In this document: positions 22,283-55,271 of the stretch, in pieces
Layout of the letters: the number at the start of each line of letters is the position of its first letter
Position numbering within the stretch: the first letter of the stretch is position 1
From: Bradyrhizobium sp. ORS 278
GTDB taxonomy: Bacteria > Pseudomonadota > Alphaproteobacteria > Rhizobiales > Xanthobacteraceae
DNA: 64,000 nt
Assembly (NCBI RefSeq): GCF_000026145.1
Contig: NC_009445.1
Coordinates: forward strand, 744,001-808,000
Direction of reading: 5' to 3'
The notes under the pieces: generated by a model
What the model was told of the DNA's origin: nothing
Database searches by the model: none
What the model saw: the letters and a program-made list of their open reading frames with translations, nothing else
Position numbers and translations under genes: made by a program

Positions 22283-22370
22283 GTCGTCATGGCCGGGCTT
22301 GTCCCGGCCATCCACGTCGAGCCGCGCCTGGAGGACGACGTGGATGCGCTGGACGAGCCCGGGCATGACG
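22283..22370. repeat. inverted palindromic repeat (GTCATGGCCGGGC type)
   Basis: The left arm begins GTCGTCATGGCCGGGCTTGT and contains a GGCCGGG...CCCGGCC hairpin. The right arm ends GAGCCCGGGCATGACG, and both inner flanks carry complementary CCACGTCG/CGACGTGG. The same subtype occurs at 48331-48458. It occupies the gap between the EAL gene and ftrA. Confidence 0.7.
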
Positions 22371-23947: not shown

Positions 23948-24071
23948 GTCGTCCCGGCCTTGAGCCGGGACCCATAAACACCGACGGCCGAATTTAGAGC
24001 GACCTGGAGCTACAGCCGTGCTTCACCTCAGGCGGCGCGGTGTATGGGTCCCGGCTCAAGGCCGGGACGAC
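23948..24071. repeat. REPIN-like element, two identical 29-bp arms in inverted orientation
   Basis: The left arm (23948-23976) begins GTCGTCCCGGCCTTGAGCCG and ends GGGACCCATA; the right arm (24043-24071) is its perfect reverse complement, 29 of 29. Each arm is itself a hairpin (CCCGGC...GCCGGG). Total length is 124 bp, the same as the copy at 38097, which shares this 29-bp arm exactly. Confidence 0.85.
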
Positions 24072-38096: not shown

Positions 38097-38220
38097 GTCG
38101 TCCCGGCCTTGAGCCGGGACCCATAACCACAGGACGGCGTGGTTGAAACGGGAAGGCGGCTCCAGCGTTCGCAAAACTCCGGACGGTGGTTATGGGTCCC
38201 GGCTCGGAGGCCGGGACGAC
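38097..38220. repeat. REPIN-like element, 124 bp
   Basis: The left arm (38097-38125) is identical over 29 bp to the arm of the element at 23948, and the right arm (ending GGCCGGGACGAC at 38220) is its reverse complement with two differences. Inner flanks AACCAC and GTGGTT extend the pairing. It has the same overall 124-bp length as the 23948 copy. Confidence 0.85.
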
Positions 38221-41719: not shown

Positions 41720-41899
41720 ACGATGGTTGCGCGCGGTCCGAAACCCGGGGAAAGGCTGGTCCGCACAGCAAGGTGATGGAAAAATATGCAAAGTTCGGGC
41801 CGAAGTTCCCAAAGAGGAACGCGCTAACCTCCTGCAGGCGCACGAGAGGATCGAAACAAGTCTCCTCCTCGTCATCCCGGCGAAAGCCGGGATCCAGAC

Positions 41900-42187
41900 T
41901 CACCGGCCAAAGATGAGGCCCGACAAGTCGCTCCAATCGGGGTTTTCCTTTTCGATCAGCTCGACCTTCCAATCGCGATGCCAGTTCTTGAGCTGCTTCT
42001 CGCGGGCGATGGCCTCCAGCGGGCTCGCGAACCTCTCGACGTGAACCAGGCGAAAAACCTTGTTTTGAGCCCCGCCCGGCACGGTGGTCTTCGAGGCGCT
42101 TCCTGACATCATTGGTGATGCCGATGTACAGCGTGCCATGATGCCCGCTGGCGAGAATGTAGACCGTCCATGCAGCTTCGGCGCTCA
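41900..42187 (-). pseudogene. GIY-YIG endonuclease-like gene with internal frameshift
   Basis: From ATG 42187 the frame reads MSAEAAWTVYILASGHHGTL, YIGITNDVRKRLEDHRAGRG, carrying the VYIL and YIG motifs and the catalytic Arg of the GIY-YIG fold. Near 42061-42072 the similarity moves to another frame, which continues KVFRLVHVERFASPLEAIAR, EKQLKNWHRDWKVELIEKEN and PDWSDLSGLIFGR to a stop at 41900. Compared with typical small (about 95 aa) bacterial GIY-YIG proteins, a few residues after GRGSK are missing, consistent with a short deletion that changes frame. The catalytic Glu (SPLEAIAREK) survives only in the second frame. Function of this family (URI-like domain) is unknown; this copy should be inactive unless frameshifting occurs. 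Confidence 0.8.
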
Positions 42188-42212
42188 TCGGTCCGTGCAA
42201 ACCAAAGGGCTG

Positions 42213-42250
42213 CGGTGGCTATGGGTCCCGGCTCGGGGGCCGGGACGACG
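42213..42250. repeat. single REPIN-type arm beside GIY-YIG gene
   Basis: GGTGGCTATGGGTCCCGGCT followed by CGGGGGCCGGGACGACG forms one hairpin arm. Its reverse complement matches the left arm of the elements at 23948 and 38097 through GTCGTCCCGG and GAGCCGGGACCCATA. Only a partner of a different subtype lies on the other side, at 41871 beyond the nuclease gene. Confidence 0.75.
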
Positions 42251-48330: not shown

Positions 48331-48458
48331 GTCGTCATGGCCGGGCTTGTCCCGGCCATCCACGTCGGCCGGCATGCTGAGAACGACATGGATGCCCGGG
48401 CCTTCGCCGCGCCGAAGCGGCTTCGGCCGCGCAGGCGGGACAAGCCCGGGCATGACGG
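48331..48458. repeat. inverted palindromic repeat (GTCATGGCCGGGC type)
   Basis: The left arm GTCGTCATGGCCGGGCTTGT, followed by CCCGGCCATCCACGTCG, matches the left arm at 22283 closely. The right arm ends GGGACAAGCCCGGGCATGACGG. The middle contains a second hairpin (CCGAAGCGGCTTCGG). It is the second copy of this subtype in the window. The 241 bp before it (48090-48330) hold no gene I can support. Confidence 0.7.
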
Positions 48459-49101: not shown

Positions 49102-49253
49102 GTCGTCCCGGACAAGCCGTGACGCGCGCCAGCGCGACACGGCGCCGATCCGGGATCCATACTCCGCGGCGGTCGTGTTCGGCAAAAGGCCAACGACCAG
49201 CGTGCCTCGAACCGCTCCCTGGGGGTATGGGTCCCGGCGTTCGCCGGGACGAC
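49102..49253. repeat. REPIN-like element, long-arm subtype
   Basis: It begins GTCGTCCCGGACAAGCCG, includes GGATCCATACTCCGCGGCGG, and ends GTATGGGTCCCGGCGTTCGC then CGGGACGAC. The layout and internal CCATACTCCGCGGCGG match the copy at 52471-52624, in the same orientation. It lies 70 bp downstream of the polA stop codon. Confidence 0.75.
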
Positions 49254-52470: not shown

Positions 52471-52624
52471 GTCGTCCCGGGCAAGCCGCGTCGCCGCGAA
52501 GCGGCGGCGGGGCGCCGACCCGGGACCCATACTCCGCGGCGGGAATGAGGCGGCAGGCCGGGGCCACAGCGTGCCCAACGCTGAGGACGGTGGCTATGGG
52601 TCCCGGGTCTACGCCCGGGACGAC
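52471..52624. repeat. REPIN-like element, long-arm subtype
   Basis: It begins GTCGTCCCGGGCAAGCCGCG, includes CCCATACTCCGCGGCGGGAA, and ends GGTGGCTATGGGTCCCGGGT then CGCCCGGGACGAC. It has the same order and orientation as the copy at 49102 and lies 115 bp upstream of polA, in the 282-bp gap to the acyltransferase gene. Confidence 0.78.
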
Positions 52625-55173: not shown

Positions 55174-55271
55174 GTCATACCCCGCGAAGGCGGGGTATCC
55201 AGTACGCCCGGTCGTCGTGATCAATGACGGCTGTGTGTACTGGATCGTCCGCCTTCGCGGACGATGACAGG
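55174..55271. repeat. palindromic repeat (GTCATACCCCGCG type) overlapping hrpB leader
   Basis: The arm GTCATACCCCGCGAAGGCGG followed by GGTATCCAGTACGC pairs with GTGTACTGGATCGTCCGCCT followed by TCGCGGACGATGAC. The hairpins CCCCGCGAAGGCGGGG and CGTCCGCCTTCGCGGACG are visible. It lies between ugd and the preferred hrpB start. Confidence 0.75.

Follow-up and report, generated by a model that had tools for sequence, protein, structure and literature searches.

Repetitive extragenic palindromic (REP) sequences of the CGTC superfamily consist of a C/TGTC tag, an 8–9 bp stem, a loop of 4–5 nucleotides and a CCA tail, and are mostly arranged as head-to-head dimers (Di Nocera et al. 2013, PMC3733652). 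They are widespread in bacteria, occur in Bradyrhizobium, and include the dRS3 repeats of Neisseria and RPE-4 and RPE-6 of Rickettsia (PMC3733652). According to the available text of that study, CGTC REPs show no association with transposase genes and apparently have no transposase dedicated to them, and the enzyme that mobilises them was left open in 2013. In the system formed by REP-associated tyrosine transposases (RAYTs) and REPINs, genes and REPs vary together, copies of the cognate REP are scattered through the genome in inverted pairs, and REP abundance is correlated with gene presence (available parts of Nunvar 2010, PMC2817692, and Bertels & Rainey 2011, PMC3116915). Here we describe a unit from a 64,000-nucleotide stretch of the genome of Bradyrhizobium sp. 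ORS278 (NC_009445.1, positions 744,001–808,000; hereafter the window), in which two CGTC REPs, or arms, frame a gene of the GIY-YIG nuclease family at positions 41871–42249. We propose, with a probability of roughly 0.7, that the unit belongs to a class of autonomous mobile elements, in which the gene for a stand-alone Slx1/UPF0213-like GIY-YIG nuclease of about 93 amino acids lies between inverted CGTC REP ends.

The REP-framed unit of the window and its copies in the host genome

Both arms of the window unit are complete hairpins with the grammar of CGTC REPs, comprising a GTC tag, an 8-bp stem, a loop and a CCA tail, and their tails point inward. The left arm (41871–41896, plus strand) has a GAAA loop and directs its CCA tail towards the gene. 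The right arm (42222–42249, minus strand) is inverted relative to the left one, and has an identical stem and a different loop. Between the arms, the minus strand contains a PF01541 GIY-YIG frame matched in two pieces, which together with the reading frames delimits a nuclease pseudogene of the REP-associated family at 41900–42188. The N-terminal part (42188–42063) and the C-terminal part (42058–41900) are separated by a frameshift at about 42059–42066, and because they lie in different frames, this copy of the gene is dead. When intervals of 300 bp were slid along the window, 27 of 63,300 had an inward REP no more than 60 bp away on each side, and at least three of the 27 start at 41896–41898, which is the GIY-YIG site.

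The genome of Bradyrhizobium sp. ORS278 (G000) has five PF01541 matches: UvrC (L004, a 691-residue frame), an unrelated small gene (L001), and three copies of one small family. The latter are the frameshifted copy of the window (L005), a copy with an in-frame TAG (L003), and an intact copy that encodes 93 residues (L002). Inward-facing arms frame all three copies, each with a stem of its own (CCCGGC, CGCCCGG and CCCTGCG), and no arms were found around L001 and UvrC in the same genome. The initial annotation, made from the letters of the window, had described inverted arms that tightly frame a small GIY-YIG gene and had taken the unit for a decayed parent element. Both claims are borne out by the full hairpins around the PF01541 frame, the frameshift, and the intact copy elsewhere in the genome, and the window locus is best explained as an autonomous mobile element that has decayed. 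L001 (G000:C1:116707), located about 200 bp after a tRNA-Ala gene, and L163 represent a second small GIY-YIG family, which has no arms.

REP arms accompany the GIY-YIG family across phyla

The loci used for comparison were picked by protein similarity alone and are the best 80 of 569 confirmed stretches; for this reason, Bradyrhizobium is over-represented and some strains appear twice. A strict detector found an inward REP within 400 bp upstream of the gene at 48, downstream at 58, and on both sides at 45 of the 80 loci, whereas REPs in the wrong orientation were present at 14 and 18 of them. Windows of the same loci at a distance of more than 1 kb served as controls and contained a REP in 8 and 9 of 578 cases, that is 1.4–1.6% versus 60–72% at the gene (Fisher 8e-43 and 9e-55). 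The double matches are divided into 26 in the 33 loci L010–L042 and 19 in the 47 loci L043–L089, and arms on both sides also occur in Candidatus Saccharibacteria (L066, L081), Bacteroidota (L072, L080) and Cloacimonadota (L079).

In a motif-free test, the DNA upstream of the gene was aligned with the reverse complement of the DNA downstream of it. The sample of 122 comprised the 80 named loci, 29 of 30 phylum loci (the host's own copy, L090, was left out) and 13 of 33 plasmid records, some of them near contig ends. Matched arms were present at 96 of the 122 loci (65/80 named, 22/29 phylum and 9/13 plasmid) versus 3 of 229 same-locus controls, one such control scoring 60. A cross-locus control gave 34 of 361, because arms are common to related species. 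The matched pairs shown mostly keep the CGTC frame, even with loops of about 40 nucleotides (L101, L103, L104, L117).

Arms are absent from 14 loci of UvrC-type or large GIY-YIG genes and from six readable loci of other small GIY-YIG families (L001, L163, L166, L165, L181, L168), of which L165 reached a score of 15, one under the arm threshold; L164, L167 and L185 were left out of these controls. The control search also returned L175 and the truncated L182, which belong to the REP-type family and do carry arms. The expectation of the initial annotation that GTC-tagged arms bound the family is thus supported, and its restriction of the system to this lineage has to be abandoned, since arms were also found at loci of Saccharibacteria, Bacteroidota, Cloacimonadota, Neisseria and Aeromonas. 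We consider the element and its link to CGTC REPs well supported and nearly certain.

In a Neisseria gonorrhoeae record deposited as a plasmid (NZ_CP119140.1; L150, 1270–2100), a REP-type GIY-YIG gene is positioned within an array of dRS3-kind CGTC repeats, one of which begins directly after the GIY-YIG stop codon. The family may therefore be linked to the Neisseria dRS3 repeats too. On a plasmid of Planktothrix agardhii (L159), a GIY-YIG gene of the family has an MmeI-type restriction gene on one side and DISARM drmA on the other, and shows no matched arms. A search of a phage collection returned no family member at E ≤ 1e-8.

The two ends of an element are alike, and their loop class follows the protein tree

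A looser detector recognised both arms at 70 of the 122 loci, and the identity of the left and right REPs of the same element was 0.944, versus 0.705 for permuted partners (maximum 0.741 of 300 permutations). Outside L010–L042, the corresponding values are 92.8% and 66.9% (43 loci). Placed on the protein tree, the loop class of the REPs requires 8 changes versus 16.7 after shuffling, with 0 of 500 shuffles as low; the test includes 65 rows, the tree is poorly resolved, and near-copies contribute to the result. By this test, the gene and its flanking REPs coevolve, as they do in the RAYT/REPIN system.

A single-domain GIY-YIG protein under purifying selection

Residues Y5, Y16, G18, R26, H30, E63 and N82 are each shared by 113 or more of the 115 uninterrupted sequences, which remained after seven of the 122 were dropped for an internal stop. 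The GIY-YIG signature of two Tyr motifs, a central Arg and a C-terminal Glu, formed by Y5, Y16-x-G18, R26 and E63, is present in 113–115 of the 115, and the protein is a predicted nuclease. For 121 Bradyrhizobium-type pairs, the median ratio of nonsynonymous to synonymous substitution rates (dN/dS) is 0.109 and no pair reaches 1; the protein is under purifying selection. The AlphaFold model has a predicted local distance difference test score (pLDDT) of 94.7. The only solved fold matching it at E ≤ 0.001 is the UPF0213 protein 1zg2 (E 1.6e-4), followed by Slx1 with E values of 0.03 and above, and 1zg2 and 1ywl are the best PDB matches of the protein. Pfam assigns GIY-YIG families alone, with no second domain in the 93 residues. 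There are 3,510 homologues at E ≤ 1e-5, not all of which need be associated with REPs. Slx1 is a nuclease for branched DNA. The base of a hairpin or cruciform is branched, and an Slx1-like enzyme would therefore suit a REP substrate.

Dispersed REPINs and an internally deleted derivative

The 26-nucleotide arm of the intact copy L002 occurs 23 times in the genome, 22 of the occurrences being letter-identical, and zero times in the control. Of these 23, 16 are found in seven regular inverted pairs of 113–124 bp and in the pair that flanks the gene. The REPIN units share with the element sub-terminal motifs (CCCATAACC...) or a second motif (CCCATACCGC...), and units L248 and L251, from distant loci, have part of their internal sequence in common. 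The L251 unit, about 122 bp long, is repeated with the same sharp ends in related genomes; among the matches listed, G613 has ten copies of at least 85% identity, G651 has four and G632 has three. The left flank of the REPIN in L248 (250–465) belongs to another dispersed repeat family, which has many copies in most of 10 related Bradyrhizobium genomes.

In genus g9 (G055 and G171), elements of about 513 bp are alike from CTTCGTC to GACGAAG and mostly different outside these limits, although some copies, chiefly in G171, have flanking context in common. The Sinorhizobium locus L155 contains, beside a full element, a REP-bounded copy that lacks 213 internal bp and is about 93% identical elsewhere. 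The short copy is a miniature derivative alongside its parent. It is the one case of an internally deleted copy that keeps both ends, the relationship of a miniature inverted-repeat transposable element (MITE) to an autonomous transposon.

The REPIN at G000:C1:1056264–1056382 has orthologs in L258–L262, in which the spacer is kept, the stems vary between species, and the left and right arms of L260 are of different type. The stem differences at this orthologous site suggest conversion between REPs.

Relatives that lack the element

The unit of Azospirillum lipoferum separates sufB from sufC, and its gene has an inverted REP pair to either side; three Azospirillum relatives with 95–98% identical flanks are without the unit. 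On Sphingobium plasmids, the element lies beside fnrL in seven records. Three relatives were compared, record H114 being outside the comparison: one has no REP at the site, and two have a single doubly tagged palindrome of the form CGTC-stem-loop-stem-GACG. The palindrome of L350 corresponds to the element minus everything between the stems, and that of L349 is the same with two changes. Such doubly tagged palindromes, which have no CCA tail, are few in the 200 genomes searched (19 in G008, 12 in G032, 11 in G089 and 10 in G159), and G032 with its 12 palindromes has one REP by the pattern used and no match of the gene.

At the site of the window unit, five of 18 relatives (L216–L233) have an element within about 500 bp, ten are without one, one has a REP remnant (L220), and two are unreadable (L225, L233). 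Exact junctions were not obtained at the orthologs of the window element, at the gene beside L002, which we take to be ubiG-like, and at three REPINs, so that presence or absence alone is visible there. Searches of plasmids with L152, L155, L160 and L186 gave no exact junction either. Of the empty sites that had been anticipated in relatives, element-free ones do exist in Azospirillum, in Sphingobium and at the window site, with junctions that are not letter-exact.

REP abundance follows the gene

Repeats of this kind number in the hundreds in some bacterial genomes. REPs were counted by one general CGTC pattern in 398 genomes of the phylum, one per species, and genomes with a family match at E ≤ 1e-15 were classified as gene-positive. 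Such a strong match is present in 95 of the 398. At least 20 REPs were found in 33 of the 95 gene-positive genomes versus 13 of the 303 others (Fisher 1.9e-13, uncorrected for relatedness). REP number therefore tracks the gene, as had been predicted, with exceptions both ways.

Other repeats in the window

Two dispersed inverted REP pairs (REPINs) at 23948–24071 and 38097–38220 belong to the CCCGGC stem class of the window arms, and the second has an internal CCCATAACCAC motif. In the REPIN-like pairs at 49102–49253 and 52471–52624, the strict detector calls the right arm only (49228–49253 and 52597–52624). The inverted pairs reported in the initial annotation are thus full at the first two positions, and at the last two the right-hand arm alone passes the strict detector. 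The strict detector also calls an inverted pair of a different CGTC REP type at 55174–55268 (GTCATACCCCGC / GTCATCGTCCGC) and single plus-strand REPs of the GTCATGGCCGGGCTTGTCCCGGCCATCCA type at 22286–22314 and 48334–48362; the REP types at these three positions (GTCATGGCCGGG..., GTCATACCCCGC...) are unlike the arms of the three elements of the genome. It identifies 14 REP-like hairpins in the window versus 3 in a reversed-sequence control. The bare 11-mer, with up to two mismatches, has 137 matches in the window versus 95 expected and is a weak marker.

Proposed mechanism and alternative explanations

The sharp-ended multi-copy units, the deleted derivative, the relatives without the element, the selection on the protein and the REP counts jointly fit an autonomous element accompanied by non-autonomous REPINs, and the best explanation, to which we give a probability of about 0.7, is that the nuclease mobilises the CGTC REPs and REPINs. 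The enzyme would recognise its cognate REP hairpin, either as an extruded cruciform or as folded lagging-strand DNA, and nick it at the hairpin base beside the GTC tag. The freed hairpin-ended unit could then be copied or re-inserted by host replication and repair. A single enzyme would serve the element in cis and the REPINs in trans, as modelled on the RAYT proposal for GTAG REPs; the initial annotation had likewise suggested that a GIY-YIG enzyme could take the part of a RAYT. Gene conversion between REP stems may contribute to the spread. DNA hydrolysis by GIY-YIG enzymes involves no covalent intermediate, and joining would therefore depend on the host; this hydrolytic chemistry makes classical transposition less likely than nick-and-repair or a homing-like mode of spread. 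Stem replacement and the doubly tagged palindromes suggest that conversions or deletions may also have their breakpoints in REP stems, and a homing-like variant of the mechanism is therefore conceivable. With somewhat less assurance, we favour an extension of the mechanism to all CGTC REPs, among them dRS3 of Neisseria and RPE-4/6 of Rickettsia: a stand-alone Slx1-like GIY-YIG nuclease would be their mobilising enzyme, acting by structure-specific nicking of REP hairpins that host repair then processes.

Several observations weigh against mobilisation by the nuclease. We infer it from sequences and not from observed excision, cleavage or transposition, and GIY-YIG chemistry is not known to include strand transfer. 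Letter-exact empty sites and target duplications were sought at the Azospirillum, Sphingobium and window sites and none was obtained; the Azospirillum relatives also differ in the intergenic DNA beside the unit, and the junction there is not letter-exact. The swapped stems at the orthologous REPIN site fit conversion better than fresh insertion. Matched arms are missing at 26 of the 122 loci (15/80 named, 7/29 phylum and 4/13 plasmid), and some pairs break the rules: the REPs of L100 point outward, L162 has no GTC tag, and the tails of L152 and L156/L157 are not CCA. Among genomes, 13 of the 303 without a strong gene match still have at least 20 REPs. Six of 12 such REP-rich genomes that were searched again have UvrC as their sole GIY-YIG protein, and two of the 12, G365 and G089, hold arm-bearing family members below the strong-match threshold. 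Conversely, 40 of the 95 gene-positive genomes have fewer than five REPs by the single pattern, which misses long loops and other stems, and several of the low-REP genomes carry arms of another type.

It is conceivable, if unlikely, that the gene is a homing-like passenger: a free-standing GIY-YIG homing endonuclease would cut gene-less REP palindromes or REPINs, repair from a copy with the gene would place it between the stems, and the arms would represent the homing site and not transposon ends. GIY-YIG enzymes are classic homing nucleases, the gene is absent from some REP-rich genomes, and REP stems were replaced at the orthologous REPIN site. Two of the three Sphingobium relatives have a doubly tagged palindrome where the element would be, exact in L350 and with two changes in L349, and low numbers of these palindromes occur in G008, G032, G089 and G159. 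However, the palindrome is equally explained as a deletion scar between the stems, the third Sphingobium relative has none at the site, and G032 combines 12 palindromes with one REP and no gene match. Homing alone also leaves unexplained the REPINs that share internal spacers at several loci and the homogeneous REP population that matches a single intact gene. A role for another enzyme, with a RAYT or insertion sequence (IS) transposase moving the REP-gene-REP units in trans and the GIY-YIG protein serving some other purpose, is highly improbable. It would accommodate the REP-rich genomes without the gene, and Bradyrhizobium sp. ORS278 encodes tyrosine transposases, but in the available text of Di Nocera 2013 (PMC3733652) those transposase genes are never flanked by CGTC REPs and associations with other transposase classes are few and fortuitous; the link to this one GIY-YIG family, moreover, spans several phyla.

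We give still less credence to a house-keeping nuclease that removes or repairs REP hairpins and is kept near REPs for regulation or genome stability. The UPF0213/Slx1-like fold, the purifying selection and the repair role predicted for prokaryotic Slx1-like proteins (available part of PMC1564403) agree with such a function, but the gene is found at many unrelated sites, often in multiple copies and sometimes broken, as in G000 with one intact and two broken copies, and the boundaries of the unit coincide with the arms. There is hardly any likelihood that ordinary extragenic REPs lie near a small gene by chance or through clustering at gene ends. REPs are common at the 3′ ends of genes (available text of Di Nocera 2013, PMC3733652), but the difference between control windows and the gene (1.4–1.6% versus 60–72%), the orientation of the REPs, their left-right identity and the arm-free UvrC controls speak against it. 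At these sample sizes, chance proximity of arms and gene is rejected by the control windows, the permutations and the other GIY-YIG genes.

Comparison with known systems

No paper tying GIY-YIG proteins to REPs by title or abstract was found in open-licence PubMed Central among the matches listed. A 2006 survey of the GIY-YIG superfamily treats prokaryotic Slx1-like proteins as predicted repair enzymes, and its available text has no word starting with "palindrom" (PMC1564403). A Moraxella pangenome table, in its available part, includes RayT and a GIY-YIG protein without linking them, and the available text of a Coxiella MITE paper deals with GTAG REPs (PMC5896051).

The arms and dispersed repeats of the window fit the description of the CGTC REP superfamily, from which few elements depart. 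The 2013 description leaves the mobilising enzyme open, whereas here a GIY-YIG gene is tied to the REPs. The protein resembles the stand-alone UPF0213 and prokaryotic Slx1-like proteins in size, fold and sequence. The six readable small GIY-YIG loci outside the REP family, some of which may be UPF0213 proper, have no arms. Asn82 is invariant in the REP-associated family (115/115), whereas the available text of the 2006 survey gives no C-terminal Asn, at what may be the equivalent position, for the Slx1 cluster (PMC1564403). With GIY-YIG homing endonucleases of the I-TevI class, the element shares the GIY-YIG core and a selfish spread that would rest on DNA cutting. It differs from them in the lack of a second domain in the 93-residue protein, in its dispersed ectopic sites, in the hairpin REP ends and in the miniature derivatives, and I-TevI stands lower in the list of fold matches than UPF0213 and Slx1.

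If the nuclease does mobilise the REPs, there would be a second, unrelated route to REP and REPIN populations, approachable with a 93-residue enzyme and a 26-nucleotide hairpin, and a function would be suggested for many proteins named only "GIY-YIG nuclease family protein" or "putative endonuclease". Mobility would then be driven by a single-domain hydrolytic nuclease, in a class of bacterial mobile elements needing no transposase, recombinase or reverse transcriptase.

The resemblance to the RAYT/REPIN system includes the REPs that flank the gene (45/80 loci by the strict detector and 96/122 in the motif-free test), the REPINs formed by inverted pairs, and the REP abundance that goes with the gene. 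The enzyme, however, is a GIY-YIG nuclease of about 93 residues, unrelated by Pfam and fold to the IS200/IS605-like HUH tyrosine transposase, and the arms are of the form GTC...CCA with C/TGTC tags, unlike GTAG REPs. The element would operate as RAYT elements do without belonging to them.
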